Part shown: piece after piece, positions 2,633-32,248 of the stretch
Numbering within the stretch: position 1 is the stretch's first letter
How the letters are laid out: each line of letters begins with the position of its first letter
Virus record (IMG/VR): IMGVR_UViG_3300047994_000491
Location: 1 to 32,248 of that record
DNA: 32,248 nucleotides
Direction: 5' to 3' (one strand)
Source of the DNA: a virus
Made by a program: the position numbers and the translations under genes
Notes under the pieces: generated by a model
The model's database searches: none
Told to the model about the DNA's origin: nothing
Seen by the model: only the letters and a program-made list of their open reading frames with translations

Positions 2633-4144
2633 ATGGGAAACCCCGCTCCCCCGCCGAACCCTGCCCAGTTCGGAAACTACCCGCCGTCCATCGGCGTCGA
2701 CCTCTACCAGTACCAGACGCAGACGACCCACAAGGAGCCGGTGCGGCTTGCGACGGGAGCGAGCGTCGCCAACCTGGGGTCGATCACGGTCGCCAACTTC
2801 GACGGCGCCGGCCAGGGCGTGACCCTGGTCCAGGGCGACCGCGTCCTCGTCCGGCACAACTCCAGCCTCGACGGCGTGGAGTCCACCAACGCGAAGCGGA
2901 TGGGGATCTGGGTCGTGGGGGTCGTCACCTCCGGGACGGCCGCGCTCACCCGCGACACCGACGCGAACACGAGCGCGATGGTCACGAGCGGGATGACCAC
3001 CCGCGTGATGGAGGGCACCTACGCGGGCCAGTCCTTCGGCCTCACGACCGCGAACCCCATCACCCTCGACACCACCGCGCTCGCGTTCGCGGCGCCGCTC
3101 AGCGCGAGCGTCAACGGGATCTCCATCCCCGCTTCCCCCGCGGCCGCCTCGACCCTCGTCGCGACCAGCGCCACCACGACGGCGTGGGTCCCGGAGGTCT
3201 CCTACGGCGTCCGCGGCGTCGTCACCGCGAACGTCTCCAGCCTCTCGGCGTTCACGGTCGCGAGCGCGGACGGCCCGACCTACACGGCAGGGCAGACCGT
3301 ACTGCTGGTCGGTCAGTCGACCGCGAGCCAGAACGGGCCGTACATCGTCGGCACCGTCACCACCGGCACCGCGCCGCTCACTCGGCCGGCGTGGTGGGCC
3401 ACCGGCATGGTGGTCAACGGCGGGAGCACCTTCGTGGCGTCCGAGGGGACCAGCGCCCTCGGCACGCTGTGGATGCTCACCACCGCGGCGCCGATCACGG
3501 TCGACACCACCTCCGTCACCATCGCCTGCGTCATCTCGCAGCCGACGGTGGAGCCCTCGGTCTACAAGGCACGCGCCGTCGTCGCGTCCAACATCGCGAG
3601 CCTCGCCGCCTTCACGGTCGCGGGCAACGACGGCGTGACCCTCATCCAGGGCGACATCGTTCTCCTGGTCTCCCAAACCACCACGAGCCAGAACGGGCCC
3701 TACGTGGTGGGCCCGGTCACCACGGGCTCCGCAGCCCTGTCCCGCCCCGTCTGGTGGCAAACCGGGACCACCCAGCCCGGCGGGCAGCTCATCACCTTGA
3801 GCGGTGAGGGCACGCACTGGAAGAACAGCACGTGGAAGGCCTGCGTTGCGGCGAGCACGCTGGTGGTCGACACCACCGACCCGGCCTTCTACCCCCAGTT
3901 CGACTTCGTGACGACGACGGCCTTCTCCGCCGGCGTCTCCCCCACGCAGACCGGACTCTGGGTGCTCAGCGGTCTCGCCGGGCCCACCAACATCACGGCC
4001 ACGCCGGTCACGCCGGGCGGTACCGCGGGCATCCTGCGCATCTCGACGCAGACCGCCGGCAAGGGAGGCTCGAGCTCCGTCATCTGCACCTCGAGCTCCG
4101 GCTCCGACACCACGACCGCCAAGCTCGTCGTCCAGAACTTCTGA
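2633..4144 (+). CDS. Virion protein with three tandem fibre-type domains
   Basis: A 503-residue protein with three copies of one domain of about 110 residues, at roughly residues 37-155, 189-302 and 310-420. Each begins with a V(R/K)xxxxxNxxSLxxFTVA-like strand. Each continues through DGVTLxQGDxVLL and a QNGPYxVGxVTTG turn, then an aromatic RPxWW patch (absent from copy 1), and ends in xITVDTTxxxF. I know this domain from tail-fibre and surface proteins of many phages. The last 80 residues are Ser/Thr/Gly-rich and beta-like (AGKGGSSSVICTSSSGSDTT). It has no signal peptide. Its position between portal and protease suggests a capsid-attached fibre or decoration rather than a tail fibre, but that is inference from gene order. 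The start at ATG 2633 has only a weak GAG-rich site upstream. Confidence 0.8.
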   Translation: MGNPAPPPNPAQFGNYPPSIGVDLYQYQTQTTHKEPVRLATGASVANLGSITVANFDGAGQGVTLVQGDRVLVRHNSSLDGVESTNAKRMGIWVVGVVTSGTAALTRDTDANTSAMVTSGMTTRVMEGTYAGQSFGLTTANPITLDTTALAFAAPLSASVNGISIPASPAAASTLVATSATTTAWVPEVSYGVRGVVTANVSSLSAFTVASADGPTYTAGQTVLLVGQSTASQNGPYIVGTVTTGTAPLTRPAWWATGMVVNGGSTFVASEGTSALGTLWMLTTAAPITVDTTSVTIACVISQPTVEPSVYKARAVVASNIASLAAFTVAGNDGVTLIQGDIVLLVSQTTTSQNGPYVVGPVTTGSAALSRPVWWQTGTTQPGGQLITLSGEGTHWKNSTWKACVAASTLVVDTTDPAFYPQFDFVTTTAFSAGVSPTQTGLWVLSGLAGPTNITATPVTPGGTAGILRISTQTAGKGGSSSVICTSSSGSDTTTAKLVVQNF

Positions 4145-9154: not shown

Positions 9155-9700
9155 GTGTTCGACTGCGAGATCGACACCAGCGACATGGAGCGCGCCTGGG
9201 ACGCCGCCGCCGGCGCGCTCGCTGAGGGCATCACCCGGGGCGTCGAACGCGGTGTCGAGGCGGGCGCCGACGAGGCCCGGTCGCGCCATCCCTACAAGGA
9301 AGGCACAGGCGCGCTTACGGGCTCGATCCGGGGCTATCTGGAGCGGGCAGCGGTCCGTGGCGCCGGCGGCGAGGCCGTCGGCGTCCTCGAGGCAGGCGCC
9401 AAGCACGCCTCGTGGGTGGAGAGCGGGACGCAGCCCCACGACATCTACCCGAAGCAGGGCCAGGGCTTCGTCGGGCCACTCCCGAAGGGGCAGGGCCGGC
9501 GCAACAAAAAGGACATCGGGACGCACCGCGTGGCCCTCCGCTGGCAAGCCGACGGCCAGACGCACTTCGCGAGCATGGTTCATCACCCCGGCGGCAAGCC
9601 GTACCCGTTCATGGGCCCCGCCGTCCTGAAGGCCGAGCGCGTCATCGAGGTCGAGGTCGAGCTCGCCGCCGAACGCGTCGCCGAGATCATGGAGAGATAG
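9155..9700 (+). CDS. HK97 gp10-like neck / head completion protein
   Basis: A 181-residue protein with the usual features of the HK97-gp10 family: an N-terminal helix (AAAGALAEGITRGVERGVEA), then YKEGTGALTGSIRGYLE, the strongly conserved centre HASWVESGTQPHDIYPK, and a C-terminal MGPAVLKAERVIEVEVELAA helix preceded by HHPGGKPYPF. HK97 gp10-like proteins act at the head-tail joint; in Mu the corresponding protein is gpG. The GTG start at 9155 is preceded by GGGAGG at 9144-9149, five bases away. The stop codon touches the next gene's ATG (9701) without a gap, so the two are translationally coupled. Confidence 0.85.
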   Translation: MFDCEIDTSDMERAWDAAAGALAEGITRGVERGVEAGADEARSRHPYKEGTGALTGSIRGYLERAAVRGAGGEAVGVLEAGAKHASWVESGTQPHDIYPKQGQGFVGPLPKGQGRRNKKDIGTHRVALRWQADGQTHFASMVHHPGGKPYPFMGPAVLKAERVIEVEVELAAERVAEIMER

Positions 9701-10090
9701 ATGCTGACGCAGAACCTCCTCGCGGACATCGGCTTCGAGGCGCGGTCCATCGACACGGCCCGCCGCCACCTCGACGACATCCGGCACTGCGCCGACGCCG
9801 ACTACGCGGTGAAGTGGTTTGACGATGGATTCGGCCGTAAGGTCCCCTCCCTCATCGTCGCCTTCAACCTGCCCGAGACGCGCCACCAGCCGGCCTGCGC
9901 GATCTCCCTCTCTTCGGTCAGCCGCTCGACCGGCGCCTGGAGCCTGCTCGAGGGCGACCGGCTCCGGGCCCACGTGCGCCGGTCCGTGGAGCACTACCTG
10001 AAGGAGTGCGGCGTCGTGCTGGATCAGCCGGCCCTGGCGGCCCCCTGGCTCCTCGGCGCGCCACAGGCGGCCGCCGCGCTCGCGAGCTGA
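9701..10090 (+). CDS. Unassigned neck-position protein (129 aa)
   Basis: A 129-residue protein starting at the base after the previous stop. It is mixed alpha/beta: a helical N-terminus (LLADIGFEARSIDTARRHLD), a strand region (KWFDDGFGRKVPSLIVAFNL), a polar centre (ACAISLSSVSRSTGAWSLLE) and a helix with RAHVRRSVEHYLKECGVVLD, ending in an Ala-rich tail. No family is recognised. Its place between the gp10-like protein and the accessory block makes a head completion or tail-joining role plausible, and it may have been next to the terminator-like gene at 13880 before the block between them was inserted. That history is an inference. Three Cys (residues 30, 66 and 103, approximately) do not form a metal motif. 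Confidence 0.65.
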   Translation: MLTQNLLADIGFEARSIDTARRHLDDIRHCADADYAVKWFDDGFGRKVPSLIVAFNLPETRHQPACAISLSSVSRSTGAWSLLEGDRLRAHVRRSVEHYLKECGVVLDQPALAAPWLLGAPQAAAALAS

Positions 10091-10182: not shown

Positions 10183-10626
10183 ATGCCCACGTTCACCGCC
10201 GCGACCACCCAAAGCTCCGGGACCGGGAGCGCTGCCGCCTACGTCACCCTCAACACCACGTCGGCCCGCCGCGCGCTCATCCGCGAGGTCGGCGTTTTCA
10301 ACGGCGCCGCGACGAGCTCTTCGGTCGGCATGGGCACGCCGGCCAACACGCCGGCGACCTCGGCCACCGTCACCCCGGTCGCGCACGACCTCGCCGACGC
10401 GAGCGCCACCGCGCTGCTCGGCACGGCCTGGGGCACCGCCCCCACCGCGCCCACCGTGTTCCAGCGTCAGACCATCCTCGGCGCCGCCGTCGGCGCGGGG
10501 ACGATCTGGAAGCTCGCCCTCGACGAGCGCATCATCATCGCGAAGAGCGCGTGGAACGTGCTCTGGAACTTCGGCGCGGCCACCAGCTCCGCGAACATGG
10601 CCTTCTACTACGAGTACGACGAGTAG
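10183..10626 (+). CDS. Small phage structural protein, decoration-like (147 aa)
   Basis: The ATG at 10183 is selected because CAGGAG ends five bases upstream; the frame before it lacks protein character. The 147-residue product is Thr/Ala/Ser-rich and beta-type: AAYVTLNTTSARRALIREVG, then GVFNGAATSSSVGMGTPANT, and ALLGTAWGTAPTAPTVFQRQ, then GAGTIWKLALDERIIIAKS and the ending VLWNFGAATSSANMAFYYEY. I recall small virion proteins of the same general plan (a strand with LELGLF, a 'P-A-N-T' turn, and a final LWNFGAA) in many phages, where they are annotated as structural without a settled function. No membrane segment or signal. Upstream gap 10091-10182 shows nothing else. Confidence 0.7.
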   Translation: MPTFTAATTQSSGTGSAAAYVTLNTTSARRALIREVGVFNGAATSSSVGMGTPANTPATSATVTPVAHDLADASATALLGTAWGTAPTAPTVFQRQTILGAAVGAGTIWKLALDERIIIAKSAWNVLWNFGAATSSANMAFYYEYDE

Positions 10627-10690: not shown

Positions 10691-11074
10691 ATGTCCATGG
10701 AATGGTCGTTCCACTACTCCGGCCCGAAAGAGCCGGAGATGAACTACAAGTGCGTCACCTGCCTCGCGGGCAAGACGAAGGAGTGTCCCACGCATGGCAC
10801 CCGCTTCGAGAATGCCTGCGCGCACTGCAAGGCGGCCCAGGGAGGGCCCTGCCATGGCCACTGGGGCATCGCCGCCGCGCTCGATGGCCACCCCGTCCCC
10901 GCCGACGCGCGCGGGGCGGCCGACTGGAAGGCCGCCAAGGCGTTCGCTCTCGCCGAGCTCGGCGAGCTCGCCCCCGACAAGTCGCGCGTCCTGGTGAAGC
11001 TCCGCGGTGATGCGCTCGAGGATCCGAGCGGCAACGTGCACCGCGAGTTCCACCTCGAGATCACCGCGCAGTAG
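10691..11074 (+). CDS. Cys/His-rich putative zinc-binding protein
   Basis: A 127-residue protein with Cys at 21, 24, 32, 43, 46 and 54 and His at 35, 55 and 57, arranged as CVTC...CPTH and CAHC...CHGH, enough for two zinc sites. Residues 60-127 look like a small beta/alpha domain (KSRVLVKLRGDALEDPSGNV, then HREFHLEIT). Two starts compete: ATG 10691 has AGGAG eight bases away (10678-10682), while ATG 10697 has GGAG six bases away (10687-10690). I keep the first. No family is recognised. It lies 64 bases after a structural gene and 41 before the repeat protein, within the accessory block. It could be a folding or assembly factor, or a minor virion protein. Confidence 0.65.
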   Translation: MSMEWSFHYSGPKEPEMNYKCVTCLAGKTKECPTHGTRFENACAHCKAAQGGPCHGHWGIAAALDGHPVPADARGAADWKAAKAFALAELGELAPDKSRVLVKLRGDALEDPSGNVHREFHLEITAQ

Positions 11075-11115: not shown

Positions 11116-13299
11116 ATGGCGGCGGATCTCTTCGTCGGCGCCGTCGCCGGCGGTCTCCTCATCGTCTCCGGCTGCGTGCCGGGCGCCGGCGTCAACAGCC
11201 TCGTCCCGACACCCGCCCACGTCCTGGTGGGCGCCGGCCAGGGCGCACAAGCCCCTGTCCAACTCACCGCTGCGCCCCCCCAGCGGCCCGGGCTGCCGCC
11301 CGGCGTCGTCGTCGCAGCAGGCGCTGGGCAGGCGGCGCAGGTGGCGGTCCAACTCACCGCTGCGCCCCCGCCTTTCGCCAAGCTCCCCCCCGCGGAGCTG
11401 CTGGCTGCGGGCGTGGGCCAGGGCGCCCAGGTGCCGTTCGTCGCGTCTACCGTCGAGGCGCTCCCGCCGTCGGCAAAGCTGCCCCCCGGGGACAACCTCA
11501 CCGCGGGCGCCGGCGTTTCCGCGTTCCCACCCTTTCAGCTCGCCCAGGTCGGCCTCGTGCCGCCCTCGGTGAAGCTGCCTCCCCTCCCCGTCCGCGCTGC
11601 CGGCGGCGGCGCTCCGGCCTACGCCCCCTTCCAGCTCGCCACCGCGGCGCTCCCTGCGCTTCGGCTCCCTCCCCCTGGCCTCGTGGCGCCTGGCGCCGGC
11701 CAGGGCGCGCAGGTCCCCTTCCAGCTCGCCCAGGTCGGCCTCGTGCCGCCCCGGGCCGGGCTCCCGCCGGGCGAGCTCGTCGTGCTCGGGAGCGGCCAAG
11801 CCGCGCAGATCCCGGTCCAGGTTGCCAGGGCGGTCCCGCCGTTCGGCGCGCTGCCGCCTCGCGAGTTCCTCGCCGCGGGTGCTGGCCAGGCCTCGGCGAT
11901 CACGAGCATCTCCCGGGGCGGCCCTCCGTCCTTCGTCGCCCTTCCGCCGGCAGCGAGGACCGCGGCCGGTACCGGCCAAGGCGCGCAGGCCCCGGCGCTC
12001 GCCTCTACCGTCTCGGCACTCCCGCCGGGGACGAGGCTCCCGCCCGCCGATCTCCTCGCCCTTGGCGCAGGGGTCCCCGCGCAGACGCCGTTCGCGTGCT
12101 CGACGGTCGCCGCGCTCCCGACCTCCGCGAAGCTCCCTCCGGGCGAGGTGGTGGCCGCCGGCGCGGGCCAGGCCGCGCAGGCTCCGCTCCACCTCCACGT
12201 CCCGCCGCCTCCCTTCGCGGGCCTCCCGCCGGCGGAGACGGTGTCCGCGGGCGCGGGCGTGGCCTCCCAAGTCGCGATCCAGCTCCGCGGGTCTCCACCA
12301 GCGACGGCCACCCTGTCGCCCCGCGAGGTCCTTACCGCCGGCGCCGGCCAAGCCGCGGCGCCCGCCCTCCAGCGGGTCGCGATCGTGCCGCCGTTCGTCG
12401 GGCTGCCGCCCCACGAGCAGCTCCTCCTGGGCACCGGCCAGCCCGCGGCGCTCCCGCGCCAGCTCCTCGGCGCGCCTCCGGCGACAGCCAAGCTCCCGCC
12501 CCTGGCCCTGCTCTCAGCGGGGCCGCCGCTCCCCGGGGTGGCGCCCCAACGCGCCGCGGCCCTGCCTCCGGGCGCGAGCCTCCCACCGGTCGAGCAGCTC
12601 GCCGTCGGCGCGGGCCAGGCCGCGGCGGTCCCGGTGGTGCTGCTGAGCGTTCCGCCGGCCTCCGCCAAGCTTCCTCCTGTCGAGCTCGTTCCCACCGGCG
12701 CGGGCAAGCCCGCGGCCGTCGCGGAGCTGGTGGTGCAGGTCAACCTCCTGCCGCCTGCCGCGGCGCTCCCGCCGCCCGAGCTCGTCGCGCTCGGCGCCGG
12801 CGACGTCGCCGGCGCCCCCTTCCAGGTCTCGGCCGTCTTCGCGCTGCCTCCGGGCTTCGCGCTGCCACCCCAGGAGGCGCTCACCTTCCCCCTCATCTGG
12901 GGCCACGACGGCAGGGCATACCCCAAGGCGAGGCTCCGCTACACCGTCACCGCGCGCGCACGAGGCGAGATGGTCATCGGCAACCCCGTCCGCCTCGAGG
13001 TGATCTTCACCGACCAGAGCGTGCCTCAGCCCTTCGGCACCCCGCAGCCACTCGCGGACCCCACGGACGTCACCCTTCGCGTCGCGCCGCTCCCGCCGCT
13101 CACGGGCCCCGTCCAGGTCTTCACCTACTCCGGCGGGCAAGTGGTGCGGGACGGCCAGGGCCTCTACCACTACGACTTCCTGCTCCACCAGGCGGGTCAG
13201 TACGCGGTGCGGTGGGAGGGATCGGGCGCGGTGATCGCCGCGTCGTCCGATCAGAGCCTCCGCGCCGACCCGAGCTCCGTCGTCGGATCGACCGTATGA
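11116..13299 (+). CDS. Repeat-stalk virion protein with C-terminal Ig-like domain
   Basis: A 727-residue protein in three parts. Residues 1-28 are hydrophobic (FVGAVAGGLLIVSGC) without an N-terminal positive charge. Residues 29-582 are 18 consecutive repeats of 29-32 residues on the plan LPPxELLAAGAGQxAQVPxQ, followed by a variable strand and a PPxAK-like end. A Gly at repeat position 10 (11 in the first) is present in every copy. Residues 583-727 contain an Ig-like beta-sandwich with DPTDVTLRVAPLPPLTGPVQ, GLYHYDFLLHQAGQYAVRWE and SGAVIAA, a form I know from phage fibre and decoration proteins. Taken together this resembles a stalk or whisker that carries an Ig-like tip, probably on head or neck. 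No known family covers the repeats as far as I can tell. AGGG lies seven bases before the ATG. The stop overlaps the next start. Confidence 0.8.
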   Translation: MAADLFVGAVAGGLLIVSGCVPGAGVNSLVPTPAHVLVGAGQGAQAPVQLTAAPPQRPGLPPGVVVAAGAGQAAQVAVQLTAAPPPFAKLPPAELLAAGVGQGAQVPFVASTVEALPPSAKLPPGDNLTAGAGVSAFPPFQLAQVGLVPPSVKLPPLPVRAAGGGAPAYAPFQLATAALPALRLPPPGLVAPGAGQGAQVPFQLAQVGLVPPRAGLPPGELVVLGSGQAAQIPVQVARAVPPFGALPPREFLAAGAGQASAITSISRGGPPSFVALPPAARTAAGTGQGAQAPALASTVSALPPGTRLPPADLLALGAGVPAQTPFACSTVAALPTSAKLPPGEVVAAGAGQAAQAPLHLHVPPPPFAGLPPAETVSAGAGVASQVAIQLRGSPPATATLSPREVLTAGAGQAAAPALQRVAIVPPFVGLPPHEQLLLGTGQPAALPRQLLGAPPATAKLPPLALLSAGPPLPGVAPQRAAALPPGASLPPVEQLAVGAGQAAAVPVVLLSVPPASAKLPPVELVPTGAGKPAAVAELVVQVNLLPPAAALPPPELVALGAGDVAGAPFQVSAVFALPPGFALPPQEALTFPLIWGHDGRAYPKARLRYTVTARARGEMVIGNPVRLEVIFTDQSVPQPFGTPQPLADPTDVTLRVAPLPPLTGPVQVFTYSGGQVVRDGQGLYHYDFLLHQAGQYAVRWEGSGAVIAASSDQSLRADPSSVVGSTV
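11200..12861 (+). repeat. 18 coding repeats of 87-96 bp
   Basis: The coding DNA for residues 29-582 of the stalk protein repeats with a period of 90 or 96 bases (31, 30, 32, 32, 30, 32, 30, 30, 32, 32, 30, 30, 30, 30, 29, 30, 32, 32 codons). Copies differ strongly at the DNA level, so the array is old and kept by selection on protein structure, unlike the identical microrepeats in the portal gene. Confidence 0.85.
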
Positions 13300-15618: not shown

Positions 15619-17141
15619 CCATCCAGATCATCGGCTTCGACAGCACGATCAAGATCCCCGGCTACTTCGGCGAGACCGTCTACAACGCCGGCCCGGTCAC
15701 CGCGGGGAGCGTCCCGATCCTGCTGTGCCTCGTCGGCACGATGCTGTCGACCGGCACCGCAACGCCCAACCAGGACGTCAAGTTCATCACCTCGTCCAAC
15801 GACGCCGACAGCTTCTTCGGTGCCGGCTGCGAGCTCGCCGTCATGTGTTACGGCGCCCTCCAGATCCCGGGCGTCACCATCTGGGCCGCGCCGGTCCCCG
15901 AGGCCGGGGGAGCGTCCGCGGCCACGGCGACGATCACGGTCTCGGGCTCCTGGTCGTCCGCAGGCACATGGACGGGCCGGATCGACGGCGTGACGGTCAG
16001 CGCGAACGCGCTCTCCACGGACAACGTGCAGAGCTTCTCGACCACCATCGCCAACGCCATCAACGGGATCCCCCAGCTCTCGGTCACGGCTGTGGTGGGC
16101 GGCGGCCCGACCTACCCCATTACCCTGACCCGCAAGAGCAAGGGCGCGCGCGGCAACCAGGGCGCGCTCTACCAGGACGTCTCGCTCCTGCCCGCGGGGA
16201 TGAGCGTGGCGATCGCCGGCGGCGCGGCCATGACCGGGCCCGGCGTCCACTTCGGGGGCGGCGCGGGGACCGAGAGCGTCTCCACCCTGCTCTCCAGCGT
16301 CATCCAGGCGACCCAGTACGACCGCTTCGCCATCGCCCAGAACGATGCGACCAACGGCGCTCTCTGGCACACCTTCCTGAACAACCAGGCGGCGCCCCTC
16401 ACGGGCCTGCTCGAGCACGCCGTCCTCGCGGTGAACGGCACGTACTCCGCGGCCGTCTCGCTCGCGCAGGCGACGCTGAACGCCGAGCGCATGCAGATGC
16501 TCTGGCAGAACGACGGCGAGACCATCCCGAGCTTCATCGCGGCGACCTTCGCCGCGAGGCGCTGCGCCGTCGAGCAGGGCGACCCCGACGCCTCCTACGA
16601 CAGCTACGTCCTCCCGGGGGTCGCGCCGCAGAGCCAGCAGGCCGACTGGTGCAACTCCGCCACCCTGATCGGCGCGCTCAACTCCGGCGTGACCCCGATC
16701 TGCACCAACGCCACCAAGGGTGCCTACGTCGTGCGGTCCATCACCACGCACTCGCAGGACCAGTTCGGCAACCCCCAGTACACGACGCTCGACACCAGCC
16801 AGGCCGTGGTCCCGGACTACGTGCGTCTCGTGCTCCGGCTCTATTGGGGAACCGACTTCCAGCCGGGTAATCCGCGCGTCGGGCCCGACCCCGACCCGAG
16901 CCAAAAGAAGCCCCCCTCGGGCTTCGCGACCCCCTCGCTCTGGCGCCAGCACGCCGGGCTCCAGCTCCAGCTCCTCGAGGAGACCGCGCCGCCGATCCTG
17001 CTCCCGGGCTCGACGGCCGCGAATCCCATCCTCGCCGAGTACAACGCCTCGGCCCAGCGCCTGATGAGCGTCGTGCCTTGTTACCCCTGCCCGAACGACC
17101 ACCAGATCGGCGTCAGCGTCCGCAACGTCACGCCCGCCTGA
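15615..17141 (+). CDS. Contractile tail sheath protein (Mu gpL-like)
   Basis: A 508-residue protein starting at GTG 15615 within the previous stop, with GGGAG at 15602-15606. The sequence shows the sheath outline: an opening loop with IKIPGYFGETVYNAGP, GTPNQDV-type handshake segment (TPNQDVKFITSSNDADSFFG), ELAVMCYGALQIPGVTIWAA, an inserted beta domain (ATITVSGSWSSAGTWTGRI), the helix-turn with TQYDRFAIAQNDATNGALWH, and a C-terminal part with GAYVVRSITTHSQDQFGNPQ and DTSQAVVPDYVRLVLRLYW. These are typical of Mu gpL-class sheaths, which contract to drive the tube into the host. The following tube gene confirms the call. The 78-base gap downstream contains a small hairpin. Confidence 0.9.
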   Translation: MTIQIIGFDSTIKIPGYFGETVYNAGPVTAGSVPILLCLVGTMLSTGTATPNQDVKFITSSNDADSFFGAGCELAVMCYGALQIPGVTIWAAPVPEAGGASAATATITVSGSWSSAGTWTGRIDGVTVSANALSTDNVQSFSTTIANAINGIPQLSVTAVVGGGPTYPITLTRKSKGARGNQGALYQDVSLLPAGMSVAIAGGAAMTGPGVHFGGGAGTESVSTLLSSVIQATQYDRFAIAQNDATNGALWHTFLNNQAAPLTGLLEHAVLAVNGTYSAAVSLAQATLNAERMQMLWQNDGETIPSFIAATFAARRCAVEQGDPDASYDSYVLPGVAPQSQQADWCNSATLIGALNSGVTPICTNATKGAYVVRSITTHSQDQFGNPQYTTLDTSQAVVPDYVRLVLRLYWGTDFQPGNPRVGPDPDPSQKKPPSGFATPSLWRQHAGLQLQLLEETAPPILLPGSTAANPILAEYNASAQRLMSVVPCYPCPNDHQIGVSVRNVTPA

Positions 17142-28590: not shown

Positions 28591-28902
28591 TCACGGAGCC
28601 GGGCAGCAATAGGCGACCTCCTGATCGGGTCCGCCGATATTAAGCCGGGGGTTGCACGGGGCGGACGCGGGCGGGCCATCGTTCGGACAGATCCATGCGT
28701 AGGGGTACGCCAGGAAATTCGAGCCGTTGCAGTAGCCGTCGTGGTCGGTGTCGTTCGACGGGTCCCTCGTGCATCCGTACTGCTGAAACGCGGCGGAGGG
28801 GTACAGCATGTCGCTTCCGCCGCTCCCGGAATCGGCCCCGCAGGCGCCCGACGAAAGCGCCAGCGCGCCCACGACCAAGAGTAGGAACATCGTCGCCTTC
28901 AT
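28591..28902 (-). CDS. Secreted Cys-rich lipoprotein (103 aa)
   Basis: ATG at 28902 is chosen over an upstream in-frame ATG because GGAAGAGG lies just before it and a signal peptide begins exactly there: MKATMFLLLVVGALALSSGA followed by Cys21, a relaxed lipobox (SGAC), as is common in myxobacteria. The mature part has Cys at 44, 58, 72, 83, 99 and 100, an acidic loop DPSNDTDHDGYC at 47-58 that looks like a calcium-binding loop, and an AYCCP end. The protein would be anchored in the outer membrane or exported. It is the last gene of a minus-strand set and its stop abuts the tail fibre stop with no space for a terminator. It looks like host-surface cargo. Confidence 0.72.
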   Translation of the reverse strand: MKATMFLLLVVGALALSSGACGADSGSGGSDMLYPSAAFQQYGCTRDPSNDTDHDGYCNGSNFLAYPYAWICPNDGPPASAPCNPRLNIGGPDQEVAYCCPAP

Positions 28903-28925
28903 GGCGCCCTCTTCCGCAAAGACCA

Positions 28926-29756
28926 TCACCGGCCACCGGAGCACTTCATCGCGCAGGCGAGATCCCCCGCGGCACAGTTGCAGCCGCCGGATTGAGGCGC
29001 CCGGGGAGGGGGAGCTGGCGCCGGCGAGGGAGCCGGCGGCGGGGATGGCGCAGCACCGGAGCTCGGCTTCCGGTCTACGACCACGCTGCCCGCCTGAGAC
29101 GGCGCCCCCGCTCGACGCGGGGCGGGCGCTGGGGAAGGAGCGGCGGGTCCTCGGTTCTGCGGAAGGTCGAACATCCCGACCACGTCGATCGCGTGGCCTT
29201 CGCCGCCAGCGCTGTTCGCATAATCGTACTTGCCCGTCACGATCCCGCAGAACCTCGCCGAGCTGCGCTCCACGAGATCGCCGCTGCTCTGCACCCCATT
29301 GAAGTGGAAGAGGTTGCCGCCCTCGCTCAGCATCAGACCACCGAACAGCGTCCCGTTGTGTTGCTTGAACGCCTCGATCTGAATGATCGTGCCGGGCACG
29401 CAGAGTCGCTTGGTCCGCTCCGCGTCGATGTCCTTCCTGACTTTCGCGTAGGAGGTTTCGTCGCGGCTCAGGGCCACGTCCTGCCAGCGCAGGTGCTCAA
29501 GCGACCAGAGCGCCAAGAGGAAAGTGCCTGGGCTTGAGTCGCCCGGCTTGTCGATCTCCATCAACGGCTTGGCCACCGCAAGCGCGTCCGCCAGGGTGGT
29601 CTTCGTCGCGATGACGTCGAGCGGGTTCGGCGGCGTCACCGACGGCTCCGGCACCACCGTTCTTTCGGTCACCGTGGACTCGGACCTCTTGCAGGCCATG
29701 GTGGCGAGCGCGCACAGCGCGAACGCGACCGGTAACCCTAGCCTGTTCACCTTCAT
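28926..29756 (-). CDS. Lipoprotein with Pro-rich linker and Cys motif (276 aa)
   Basis: A minus-strand protein with a typical signal (MKVNRLGLPVAFALCALATM, then Ala, then Cys22) and a strong ribosome site GGGAGGGGAG six to eight bases upstream. Residues 50-200 form a folded domain (LADALAVAKPLMEIDKPGDS, ERTKRLCVPGTIIQIEAFKQ, GNLFHFNGVQSSGDLVERSS, RFCGIVTGKYDYANSAGGEG, HAIDVVGMFDLPQ), a beta-type fold of the kind seen in OB-like ligand or regulator proteins, although I cannot name a family. Residues 205-255 are a Pro/Ala linker. The end, CNCAAGDLACAMKC, is a small Cys module that I know from myxobacterial secreted proteins. It may be surface-exposed and change receptor access or cell contact. 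Only 23 bases separate it from the next lipoprotein. Confidence 0.75.
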   Translation of the reverse strand: MKVNRLGLPVAFALCALATMACKRSESTVTERTVVPEPSVTPPNPLDVIATKTTLADALAVAKPLMEIDKPGDSSPGTFLLALWSLEHLRWQDVALSRDETSYAKVRKDIDAERTKRLCVPGTIIQIEAFKQHNGTLFGGLMLSEGGNLFHFNGVQSSGDLVERSSARFCGIVTGKYDYANSAGGEGHAIDVVGMFDLPQNRGPAAPSPAPAPRRAGAPSQAGSVVVDRKPSSGAAPSPPPAPSPAPAPPPRAPQSGGCNCAAGDLACAMKCSGGR

Positions 29757-29772
29757 GGTGTGCTCCCCTCCC

Positions 29773-29789
29773 GGCCCGCGATGCGGGCC
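29773..29789 (-). other. Perfect 7-bp hairpin before the lipoprotein gene
   Basis: GGCCCGC (29773-29779), a three-base loop, and GCGGGCC (29783-29789) lie between the stop of the five-gene minus operon and the ribosome site of the lipoprotein gene. There is no T-run. It may slow or partly end transcription, or protect the mRNA. Confidence 0.45.
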
Positions 29790-30002
29790 TCAGCTCCCCG
29801 TTCGCTGGACCGCCGCCAGTGCCGCGACCGTCCCCTCGTGCAGGTCGTGCCAGATGTGCGCCTCCCCGGCGCCGGTGTCGCTCTTGCGGGCGACGATGAT
29901 CGCGCCGCGGACCTTCATTTGCCAGCTCGGCGGCGCCTCGTTCTCGGCCAGCGTGAGGCGCGGGCCAGGGACGGGATCAAGGCGCGGCACGGCGGCGGTC
30001 AT
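29790..30002 (-). CDS. Small unknown protein, fifth gene of minus operon (70 aa)
   Basis: The ATG at 30002 overlaps the previous stop (ATGA), which defines the start. The 70-residue product begins TAAVPRLDPVPGPRLTLAEN, then PPSWQMKVRGAIIVARKSDT, then AHIWHDLHEGTVAALAAVQR. It shows two or three short strands and a C-terminal helix, without Cys motifs, signal or membrane segment. No family is recognised. Coupling with the zinc-ribbon gene suggests a common function. It ends just before a perfect hairpin. Confidence 0.55.
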   Translation of the reverse strand: MTAAVPRLDPVPGPRLTLAENEAPPSWQMKVRGAIIVARKSDTGAGEAHIWHDLHEGTVAALAAVQRTGS

Positions 30003-30196
30003 GACGCTTCCCCGGCACACGCTGGCACCAAGACCTCTTCGGCGCGCTTCAGGAGGAACTTCGCCTCGCACCGGGGGCTGCATGCGTGGAAGGTCTCCCG
30101 CCTCCAGGCGTGACGGAACACGATCTCCGTGAACTCGTCGTCCTCGCCCTGTGCCTTCCCGCAGCCGTCGCAGATGGTGGTGACGGCCGTGCTCAT
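29999..30196 (-). CDS. Zinc-ribbon-like small protein (65 aa)
   Basis: A 65-residue protein with Cys9, Cys12, Cys39 and Cys43 (ICDGC and HACSPRC), the spacing expected for one structural zinc. His37 is an alternative ligand. The end of the finger runs into a basic helix (EAKFLLKRAEEVLV). Such a fold could bind nucleic acid or a partner protein. Its start (ATG 30196) overlaps the stop of the nucleotidyltransferase gene, and its own stop overlaps the next start, so it is translated with them. No named family. Confidence 0.62.
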   Translation of the reverse strand: MSTAVTTICDGCGKAQGEDDEFTEIVFRHAWRRETFHACSPRCEAKFLLKRAEEVLVPACAGEAS

Positions 30197-30693
30197 CGCG
30201 CGCCTCCCCTTCTCTGCTCCTCCAGCGTGGCGATCAGCACCGGGAGAACCGCCTTGTCCTTCGGCCGTCCGGCGCGCGTCTTCTCGGCGATGAGGCGGGG
30301 GAGGCCTAGAACGCGCAGGGTGATCTCGCCGTTGCTGACGATGGTCGTGTCCGGCAAGAGCTGCTCGTAACCGTCACCCTCGCCCAGCTCGCAAAGCACA
30401 TCGAGCTTGCCCAGATCGGTCTGGAGGAGAACGTGCCCGTGGCCCGAGAGAGCGCCCTCCGTCGGAGGAAGCCGGCGGTTGGCGAGATCCGAGCGGTTGT
30501 AGGCGCGATGCGCGAGGAGCCAAGGTAGGAGGCGCGCCACGTTCTCGGGCGCCCGGCGATGGACGATGTCGACGTCATCGGTGAGCATGGGCACGTCCTG
30601 GACGACAGCGGCGGCGCCGCCAACGAGGACGAACTCCACGCCGATCTCCGTCAGTTCGCGGAGCATGCGCCGCGTCTTTTCGTCAAGCGACAC
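30193..30693 (-). CDS. Predicted nucleotidyltransferase (toxin-antitoxin/Abi-type fold)
   Basis: A 166-residue protein from GTG 30693. The upstream part of the frame is antisense noise, and the chosen start overlaps the previous gene's stop region by 11 bases. The minimal nucleotidyltransferase motif is plain: FVLVGGAAAVVQDVPMLTDD with GG at 25-26, then Asp40 and Asp42 (DDVDIV), and a third acidic residue Asp98 in LGKLDVLCEL. The ending RLIAEKTRAGRPKDKAVLPV is characteristic of a family of stand-alone bacterial nucleotidyltransferases. Members of this superfamily add nucleotides to tRNA or protein and can act as toxins (AbiEii-type) or antitoxins (MNT). All three acidic positions are present, so activity is likely. 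Substrate unknown. Confidence 0.82.
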   Translation of the reverse strand: MSLDEKTRRMLRELTEIGVEFVLVGGAAAVVQDVPMLTDDVDIVHRRAPENVARLLPWLLAHRAYNRSDLANRRLPPTEGALSGHGHVLLQTDLGKLDVLCELGEGDGYEQLLPDTTIVSNGEITLRVLGLPRLIAEKTRAGRPKDKAVLPVLIATLEEQRRGGAR

Positions 30694-30985
30694 GGTGGTA
30701 CCCGCGGAGCGTCTCCATCTGCGCGATCGCAAAGCAGACGCGATCGATCTGCTCCGCCCCGCGGGCAAAATCGGACATGCCCACTCCCTGGAGGTGCCCC
30801 CAGATCAGCGTCCGATCGACTTCGGCCACGGCCTCGATAACCTCCGGATCCTCCGCCGCCAGCCGGCGGAGCGCGGCGCCGCAGACGGGGTCGTCGAACA
30901 GCTCCGGCGACATCGGCCGGAAGATGCGGGCGAGGGTCGCCTCGTCCAGCGGCTTGCCCTCATGGTCGACGATCTTGCGGTTCAT
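30683..30985 (-). CDS. Unknown 100-aa partner of the nucleotidyltransferase
   Basis: A 100-residue helical protein whose ATG (30985) overlaps the stop of the regulator gene (ATGA) and whose stop lies inside the nucleotidyltransferase start region. It begins NRKIVDHEGKPLDEATLARI, then FRPMSPELFDDPVCGAALRR, and continues LAAEDPEVIEAVAEVDRTLI and AEQIDRVCFAIAQMETLRGY. No named family. Placement immediately upstream of a nucleotidyltransferase, and its size and charge, are those of an antitoxin or cognate partner, but this is inferred from context only. Confidence 0.65.
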   Translation of the reverse strand: MNRKIVDHEGKPLDEATLARIFRPMSPELFDDPVCGAALRRLAAEDPEVIEAVAEVDRTLIWGHLQGVGMSDFARGAEQIDRVCFAIAQMETLRGYHRVA

Positions 30986-31302
30986 GGGGAGGCCCTCGAC
31001 CCGGACGCCTTCTTCGGGGGCGCAGGGGTCCCGTTCCTCCGGGGCTTGGAGGACTCGGGGGAGGAAGGGGCCGCGATCGGGGGCTCCATCGTCTTCCTCC
31101 GCCGCTCCGCGGCCTCGAAGACCAGGGCTCGCAGGAAGTCGCTCTCTGTCAGGTCGATGCCTTTGGACCGCAGCGCCGCCGCCTCCTCTTGGCGCATCTC
31201 GCAGAAGACCGCGTACTCCGTGTCGGTCAAGCGGCCCGAAATCACGTGCTTCTTGGGGCTGAGCGACGGCTTCCGCCCCCGGGGATCTTTCTGCGCCGCC
31301 AT
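30982..31302 (-). CDS. Ribbon-helix-helix-like DNA-binding regulator
   Basis: A 106-residue protein, first in the minus operon. Residues 18-70 read as a strand (KKHVISGRLTD), helix (TEYAVFCEMRQEEAAALRSK) and second helix after GIDLTESD (FLRALVFEAAERRRK), the pattern of CopG/MobC-type ribbon-helix-helix repressors. A basic N-terminal arm (DPRGRKPSLSPKK) and a Pro/Ser-rich C-terminal tail frame it. These proteins bind short inverted repeats as dimers, and a perfect inverted repeat lies at 31361-31383, about 60 bases upstream of its ATG. That suggests autoregulation, inferred from position. The start at ATG 31302 has only a weak AGGG. Confidence 0.72.
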   Translation of the reverse strand: MAAQKDPRGRKPSLSPKKHVISGRLTDTEYAVFCEMRQEEAAALRSKGIDLTESDFLRALVFEAAERRRKTMEPPIAAPSSPESSKPRRNGTPAPPKKASGSRASP

Positions 31303-31360
31303 GCCCTAGATGTACCATCCGAGGCGGGGAACCGGCACCAACTATTTTTGAAGCGTTACA

Positions 31361-31383
31361 CTTTTTATGTAGACAATAAAAAG
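31361..31383. promoter_or_regulatory. Perfect 8-bp inverted repeat, candidate operator
   Basis: CTTTTTAT (31361-31368) and ATAAAAAG (31376-31383) are exact reverse complements across a 7-base spacer, so the half-site centres lie 15 bases apart. It overlaps the candidate plus promoter and faces the ribbon-helix-helix gene. The stem is nearly all A/T, so a terminator role is unlikely. Confidence 0.55.
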
Positions 31384-31412
31384 AACGAGGCGCATACTCC
31401 CCAAAGTTGAAC

Positions 31413-31446
31413 GGCTCCCCGGCGCGTTAGGACACGCCGAGGGGCC
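31413..31446 (+). promoter_or_regulatory. Leader hairpin before the 31478 gene
   Basis: Arms at 31413-31424 (GGCTCCCCGGCG) and 31435-31446 (CGCCGAGGGGCC) form 12 pairs with one G-U and one mismatch around a ten-base loop. It would form in the 5' leader of the plus-strand gene, ending 22 bases before its GAGG ribosome site. It may act as an attenuator or stabiliser. Confidence 0.45.
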
Positions 31447-31477
31447 TGGCCCGCAAACCTCTTGCTCCGAGGTCCAC

Positions 31478-32041
31478 ATGGTTACGCTCCCTGTAGCACA
31501 GGCGCCCGCCACCGCGGCGCTGCCCACGCTCACCTCCACCGACGCCGCCCGCATCCAGGCCACGATCGCCTCCCTGACACTTCACGGCGTGGCCTTCATC
31601 GCCGGCATGAAGGTGGAGCGCATCTCCCTCTTCTGGTTCGTCGTCGCCGGGACCTGCCTCCACGTCGACGAGGTCGTTGCCGAGATCGCGTACCTCGTCT
31701 CCGAGCGCGAGGCCATCCAGGACGAGCCCACCCTCCTCAGGGCCGCCGAGGTGGTGCAGCGCCAGCTCGCAAACGGCCCCCTCCATCTCGACGGCAGCTT
31801 CACCGTGCGCACCAGCTTCGGTTGCGGCCACCAGGTGCAGATCGCCACCTGGTCGAGCAAGGACTGGCGCGCCTGCCGTCGCGATGACGTCCGGGCCCTC
31901 GACGAGCTCGTCGAGTGGGCCAACGGCATGGGCTTGGGCTTCCGGGCCACCCGTGTCGGCTGGGAGGTGGTCGCGACCCTCCCTGCCTATGGCCCCGGCG
32001 TCGCGAAGACCTCGGCCCGCGCCCGCGAAGAGGCCGCGTGA
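31478..32041 (+). CDS. Unknown protein (187 aa), first gene of the rightward unit
   Basis: ATG 31478 has GAGG five bases upstream. The 187-residue protein has a Thr/Ala/Pro-rich N-terminus, then a helical region (TSTDAARIQATIASLTLHGV, HVDEVVAEIAYLVSEREAIQ, TLLRAAEVVQRQLANGPLHL). A beta-containing middle (DGSFTVRTSFGCGHQVQIAT) is followed by DDVRALDELVEWANGMGLGF, and the end is polar. No family is recognised; FWFVVAGTCL is too short to be a membrane helix. Read in its divergent position next to a regulator, it may be a phage early/regulatory or accessory gene. Its stop overlaps the next start (GTGA at 32038-32041). Confidence 0.6.
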   Translation: MVTLPVAQAPATAALPTLTSTDAARIQATIASLTLHGVAFIAGMKVERISLFWFVVAGTCLHVDEVVAEIAYLVSEREAIQDEPTLLRAAEVVQRQLANGPLHLDGSFTVRTSFGCGHQVQIATWSSKDWRACRRDDVRALDELVEWANGMGLGFRATRVGWEVVATLPAYGPGVAKTSARAREEAA

Positions 32042-32248
32042 CCGCTCTCCCCGCGCTCCCGGTCGACCCGTCCTCGGTGGCCCCCTCGCCGAGCTCCGAC
32101 ATGTCCCCCGTGAGCCTCGGCCACATGGCCGAGCTCCGGGCGGGCCTGGTGGGTGTCCTCGGCGAGCTCGACGAGCTGCTGGCGGCCGTCGAAGCCTCGG
32201 CGGAGGACGAGGAGACGAAGGAAGAGCTCCGCGAGCTCGCCGCCGGCG
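32038..32248 (+). CDS. Unknown gene, 3' end outside window
   Basis: Begins with GTG 32038 inside the previous stop. The first 70 residues are a Pro/Ser-rich opening (TALPALPVDPSSVAPSPSSD) followed by an acidic amphipathic helix (HMAELRAGLVGVLGELDELL, then AAVEASAEDEETKEELRELA) with heptad spacing. The frame is still open at the last base. Coupling with the preceding gene supports it. No function can be named. Confidence 0.5.
   Translation, partial: MTALPALPVDPSSVAPSPSSDMSPVSLGHMAELRAGLVGVLGELDELLAAVEASAEDEETKEELRELAAG

Follow-up and report, generated by a model that had tools for sequence, protein, structure and literature searches.

Gene organization of the locus

The stretch of DNA analysed here (the window) is an IMG/VR virus record of 32,248 bases. 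According to the ORF list and its translation, it carries on the plus strand a gene encoding a protein of 727 residues that contains a long array of tandem repeats (Table 1). Upstream of this repeat gene lie genes for a Mu-type portal, an I-type protease, a cement protein, the major head protein and gp36- and gp10-like connector or neck proteins, while those for the tail sheath, baseplate hub and baseplate J are found downstream. The first-pass annotation had suggested that the product could be a head or neck fibre, and such a location fits the gene order of the window as well as that of the independent relatives described below.

Table 1. Features of the repeat gene and of its surroundings in the window
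Feature	Position	Strand	Basis
Neck/tail-completion protein, HK97 gp10-like, upstream of the putative cassette	9155..9700	+	phrog_5, E 2e-9
129-aa putative cassette partner	9701..10090	+	41% identity, E 2e-14, to G004 protein encoded between Cys-rich and GDSL genes
147-aa putative cassette partner	10183..10626	+	66% identity, E 3e-59, to product of L143:4740-5177 (G004)
127-aa Cys-rich, zinc-ribbon-like putative cassette partner	10691..11074	+	38% identity, E 2e-12, to L143:4066-4647 product near G004 repeat gene
LPP-repeat protein, probable fibre, whole gene, 727 aa	11116..13299	+	ORF, codon statistics, IMG/VR relatives
N-terminal 28 residues, hydrophobic (MAADLFVGAVAGGLLIVSGCVPGAGVNS)	11116..11199	+	translation
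18 tandem units, consensus LPPxELxAAGAGQxAQxPxQLxxxxPPxxx	11200..12861	+	unit division, profile, autocorrelation
C-terminal 145-aa region, Ig-like signature GLYHYDF...AGQYAVRW	12862..13296	+	Nonomuraea protein match
Tail sheath, downstream limit of neck region	15621..17141	+	phrog_165, E 8e-50

No in-frame alternative start is present between the upstream stop and the ATG at 11116. The GC-rich stretch has long open frames on both strands, as might be expected if the gene were a spurious frame, a low-complexity artefact of very GC-rich DNA, but we give this reading practically no credit. Among the six frames, only this one has codon scores that are clearly positive (GC of 0.83/0.59/0.89 over the three codon positions), and homologues are found at E-values from 1e-15 to 1e-104, the jumbo phage contigs among them having only 62-63% GC. 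A frame artefact is rejected on these two grounds, codon statistics and homologues in contigs of lower GC content.

Elsewhere in the window, a 503-residue protein encoded between portal and protease (2633-4144) contains repeated domains that match the head-decoration/tail-fibre PHROGs phrog_2647 and phrog_11518 in three stretches. At the right end (28591-32248), the opposite strand carries ORFs with lipoprotein-like signal sequences together with a nucleotidyltransferase-like ORF, which suggests that the DNA to the right of ~28.6 kb may belong to a host and hence that the phage is a prophage with a boundary near this point.

The repeat array

Residues 29-582 divide exactly, without remainder, into the 18 units of 29-32 residues proposed in the first-pass annotation (from unit 1 to unit 18: 31, 30, 32, 32, 30, 32, 30, 30, 32, 32, 30, 30, 30, 30, 29, 30, 32 and 32 residues), and LPPQEAL after unit 18 forms the partial start of a nineteenth. 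As was also proposed there, the Gly at position 10 is invariant (position 11 in unit 1) and the initial LPP nearly so; G12 is nearly invariant as well. Length variation between units mostly corresponds to a 2-residue insertion ahead of the second PP, and lengths of 30 and 32 alternate without regular order. Autocorrelation peaks at lags 30, 32 and 62 reach 0.69, 0.45 and 0.37, compared with -0.08 for the best of 500 shuffles, and a degenerate-DNA motif of the unit has six matches in the window, all inside the repeat gene, for an expectation of 0.00. The unit is a real, genuine repeat family.

At the DNA level, the copies share a median identity of 61% (72% for the best pair), and the units differ from one another more at synonymous than at non-synonymous sites (pS 0.51, pN 0.38; 101 of 120 pairs). 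The earlier view of a diverged, ancient array under protein-level selection holds for the divergence and for the excess of synonymous changes, but has to be tempered by two identical DNA tracts, of 30 bases between repeats 4 and 6 and of 23 bases between repeats 1 and 2, which point to a small amount of recent, occasional exchange between units.

Relatives of the repeat protein in uncultivated phages

The first-pass annotation knew no family with this repeat, and neither Pfam, PHROGs, NCBIfam, PDB nor INPHARED yielded a match to the repeat protein; none of the PDB chains matches the 727-residue sequence. With tblastn, where BLAST masks low-complexity sequence, nothing was obtained in phages, and in plasmids only C-terminal matches, of which that to Nonomuraea alone is credible. 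Short-peptide scans, which require exact 8-mers, likewise gave nothing in viral contigs (with the whole protein, its C-terminal domain, portal, major head protein or sheath as query) or in genome contigs (whole protein). Two bacterial phyla, of which ~400 genomes each were searched without a positive control, yielded no relative. The LPP-repeat family is thus absent from the searched libraries, while belonging to a recognisable class of phage structural proteins.

Two successive DNA patterns located the relatives in IMG/VR, a degenerate one for PP-x6-GxGQxAQ and then a stricter one for tandem copies. A profile built from the window units only, a check proposed with the first annotation, picks out three more repeat proteins among IMG/VR contigs, with summed scores of 129, 212 and 87 bits, far above the best shuffled control (7.3 bits; 100 shuffles each), and phmmer with the whole protein matches the three at E-values of 4e-104, 1e-63 and 3e-15. 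The repeat profile rejected the remaining matches of the DNA motif, including all seven genome-contig matches of the tandem pattern. A weak genome match (L150) was discarded as the antisense of a phosphoglucomutase-like gene.

The known relatives are few and all metagenomic. G003 is a jumbo phage contig of 363 kb, to which the 126-kb contig G001 is near-identical, and G002 (41 kb) a fragment from a closely related jumbo phage (accessions listed for G001/G003 and G002: IMGVR_UViG_3300045923_000041, 3300044796_000662, 3300028800_000175); G004 is a contig of 25 kb (IMGVR_UViG_3300043778_000126). The four proteins have in common the consensus L-P-P-x-(D/E)-x-(V/L/I)-x-A-G-x-G-Q-(A/P)-A-Q-x-(P/A), followed by a mostly hydrophobic stretch and P-P, and in all four the units are in tandem, with L1-P2-P3, G10, G12, A15-Q16, P18 and PP25-26.

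The jumbo repeat proteins resemble that of the window in their LPP...GxGQxAQ unit of ~30-32 residues, in a C-terminal Ig-like signature and in their placement before a head-tail connector. They differ by their greater length (~2.8 kaa in G003) and by a more aromatic unit (G-F/Y-G). In addition, G003 (L145, minus strand) has in its N-terminal half, ahead of the repeats, four extra domains of ~220 residues with a VTDxxGNxY motif, without significant Pfam match; this half also contains a second repeat type, LPPFQxLENGxxxGITGAFGGQ. G004 shares with the window the repeat unit and a cassette of small genes, but its units are more irregular, an adhesin-like domain is found at its N-terminus, and a GDSL hydrolase is encoded nearby. 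The Ig-like C-terminus was not found in G004, where a separate ORF of 98 residues follows at the contig end.

The number of units amounts to ~12-14 recognisable ones in G004, 18 in the window, at least 22 in G002, whose 5' end is missing, and ~36 in G003. The comparison of repeat number among relatives suggested earlier reveals a difference, as expected if the count sets the length. The near-identical G003 (L145) and G001 (L032) diverge abruptly where the repeat gene begins, at its 5' end, probably through assembly collapse or a frameshift; the G003 gene may have been collapsed there, and counts taken from these two assemblies are approximate.

A putative cassette of small genes and a slot before the connector

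The repeat gene lies among head or neck genes in the window, G004, G002 and G003. Homologues of the 129-, 147- and 127-residue proteins encoded ahead of it in the window are found close to the repeat gene of G004 (41%, 66% and 38% identity), the GDSL hydrolase gene sitting between cassette and repeat gene. On the other hand, G004 and the window differ in the families of their portal, protease and major head protein. Since these small neighbours are kept while the head genes differ, the repeat gene and its partners appear to form a cassette, combined with head modules that are unrelated to one another.

In G002 and G003, the gene directly or closely downstream of the repeat gene encodes a protein with an Ig-like N-terminal domain. 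Its homologue in the 308-kb Tunturiibacter phage Tunturi_5 is annotated as head-tail connector (E 6e-26), and relatives of the C-terminal part of this connector-like protein exist in phage G and in an uncultured phage of 485 kb. A GP4-fibre-type gene (podophage GP4 fibre I family, PF23140, E 6e-39) is found in G003 as well, ~1-2 kb upstream from its repeat gene. Judged by eye, LamG-like or LamG-plus-repeat proteins occupy the slot before the connector both in a Nonomuraea phage-plasmid and in the 485-kb phage. With fibre-type, LamG-like and repeat proteins alternating in it, this locus looks like a general adhesin or fibre position at the neck.

Other genes of these regions may be recorded here. 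A jumbo phage encodes an actin/Hsp70-like ATPase (GIGLDIGTMN; L141:8699-9712) between neck genes and tail sheath. Two genes past the Tunturi_5 connector, gp321 (L151:16139-20227, 1362 residues, annotated MutT/NUDIX) looks like a multi-enzyme fusion and carries two YHGT-type ADP-ribosyltransferase-like segments. Plasmid III of Nonomuraea gerenzanensis contains phage head and tail genes, as well as a gene for a 586-residue LamG-like/Ala-rich-repeat protein (L002:2232-3992).

The C-terminal region

The C-terminal region is 43% identical over 80 residues (E 2e-3) to the N-terminal domain of a putative connector protein of the Nonomuraea phage-plasmid, the Ig label of both being a matter of sequence signature only. 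The remainder of that protein matches the TIGR01560 connector model at E 7e-4, below the model's cut-off. The jumbo repeat proteins also end in a domain with a VGxFYV...GxWxVRW signature, which is related to the Ig-like part of the jumbo connector (25-26%); an hhalign comparison of the window domain with these jumbo C-termini was not significant (probability 4.7%). The Ig-like character announced for this region is suggested by its signature, and no known-family profile matches it: in Pfam (above chance), PHROGs and NCBIfam nothing was obtained, Ig-like/Big families included. No adhesin or enzyme domain was recognised in the window protein.

Models of the repeats

For units 11-14, an AlphaFold2 monomer model based on 15 aligned rows, with sequences from each of the four proteins, had a mean pLDDT of 36 and no secondary structure, so that the regular repeat packing anticipated in the first-pass annotation was not found. 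The last unit with the C-terminus, as a single sequence, was modelled almost entirely as beta strands with a pLDDT of 34. Such monomer models are compatible alike with an oligomeric stalk and with disorder, and neither show nor exclude the one or the other. A collagen-like fibre is rejected, as glycines are spread evenly over the three phases (23/20/18) instead of occupying every third residue.

Discussion

The repeat gene stands beside head and neck genes in the window and in G004, and just before the connector in the jumbo phages. These positions lead us to favour a neck or head-proximal virion fibre with a covalent repeat spacer, a reading that we hold to be probable; it is from gene position that we infer incorporation into the particle. 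Weighing against it are the low pLDDT of both monomer models, the lack of a significant match between the window's C-terminal domain and those of the jumbo phages, the small number of relatives, all metagenomic, and the failure to recognise an adhesin or enzyme domain in the window protein. The fibre would belong to a Mu-like contractile phage and be located where head and tail join, or close by. Its 18 LPP...GxGQxAQ units would form an extended hydrophobic spacer rich in Pro, Ala and Gly, the length of which would vary with their number. At the C-terminal end, the Ig-like domain most likely serves to dock the fibre to the neck or connector, though this domain could be a distal adhesin instead. 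In the relatives, the function of binding or cleaving a surface would be supplied by adhesin-like domains on the N-terminal side or by the adjacent GDSL hydrolase gene.

Could the protein act elsewhere than on the surface of the particle? Proline-rich spacers are found in envelope proteins, and the hydrophobic N-terminus contains a lipobox-like LIVSGC; the prophage could thus encode a cell-surface lipoprotein or another envelope protein involved in lysogenic conversion, and not a part of the virion. No basic residue precedes the hydrophobic stretch, however, the gene lies inside a late structural operon, and its relatives adjoin connector genes in jumbo phages, which makes this explanation very improbable. 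Hardly more credible is a role in assembly, as a scaffold, chaperone or internal head protein, without exposure on the particle: the placement among head genes agrees with it, but the strong variation in repeat number and the adhesin-like domains of the relatives suit an exposed fibre better.

Within the favoured reading of a neck or head-proximal fibre, polarity and the nature of the spacer are to be considered. Most phage tail fibres are anchored by their N-terminus, as would be the case here if the Ig-like domain were the distal host-binding tip, as first described. The nearest sequence relative of this domain is fused to a putative head-tail connector, and the adhesin-like domains of G003 and G004 come ahead of the repeats. 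These two features argue against a C-terminal tip, which we regard as a less likely but serious option, and the C-terminus may plausibly be the anchor instead. A point in favour of an N-terminal anchor is that the A-1(L) neck fibre is attached through the N-terminal domain of gp82 (PMC10966104). As to the spacer, the repeats could act at the same virion location as an elastin-like, hydrated and disordered hydrophobic tether, a flexible spring-like leash, and not as an ordered stalk. Elastin is hydrophobic yet disordered owing to its Pro and Gly content (PMC5703643). Like elastin and unlike ordinary disordered linkers, the units are hydrophobic and nearly uncharged; three of the four repeat proteins contain 18-20% Pro and 7-11% Gly (18% and 11% being the figures set against elastin-like elastomers), and the model of four repeats showed no structure. 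Nevertheless, L1, P2-3, G10, G12, A15, Q16, P18 and PP25-26 are kept across very distant phages, more strictly than elastomers usually need, and a low pLDDT could also result from modelling an oligomeric fibre as a single chain with an alignment of 15 rows. We consider such a tether a minority option, although one to be taken seriously.

Among known systems, the nearest functional analogue would be the bead-chain neck fibre gp82-gp81-gp80 of the Anabaena myophage A-1(L), ~100 nm long, in which ~14 separate gp81 bead trimers are joined non-covalently and mounted on a pentadecameric neck (PMC10966104). Both would be flexible, repeat-built fibres at the neck of a contractile phage, with a length following the number of beads or units and a distal carbohydrate-binding-like module. 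The fibre proposed here would differ in having covalent repeats in a single chain, for which no sequence relation to A-1(L) and no match in the PDB was found. P0002 of Nonomuraea gerenzanensis plasmid III is also a repeat protein encoded directly before an Ig-like/connector fusion gene, but with an Ala/Ser-rich repeat of ~20 residues and, by eye, a LamG-like N-terminal domain. The neck whiskers of T4, made of fibritin (wac), resemble the protein in the location proposed here; fibritin is a coiled coil, and a heptad structure of this type is rejected for the repeats, since 18% proline at conserved positions of the 30-residue period excludes it.

Because they are flexible and evolve fast, the fibres of neck and head rank with the least understood parts of virions. 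More tentatively, and with somewhat less confidence than the fibre itself, we propose a new kind of fibre-forming repeat in the LPP...GxGQxAQ unit. It would be either a beta stalk of intertwined, oligomeric chains or an elastin-like spring carried by the virus, and phages ranging from Mu-like prophages to the jumbo phages would exchange it as a cassette, thereby making neck fibres whose length can be adjusted. A repeat family common to a Mu-like phage and a 363-kb phage, in a cassette found with non-homologous head genes, offers a searchable signature for neck and head fibres, and the natural series of repeat numbers, from ~12 to 36, gives a means to test whether the count sets fibre length.
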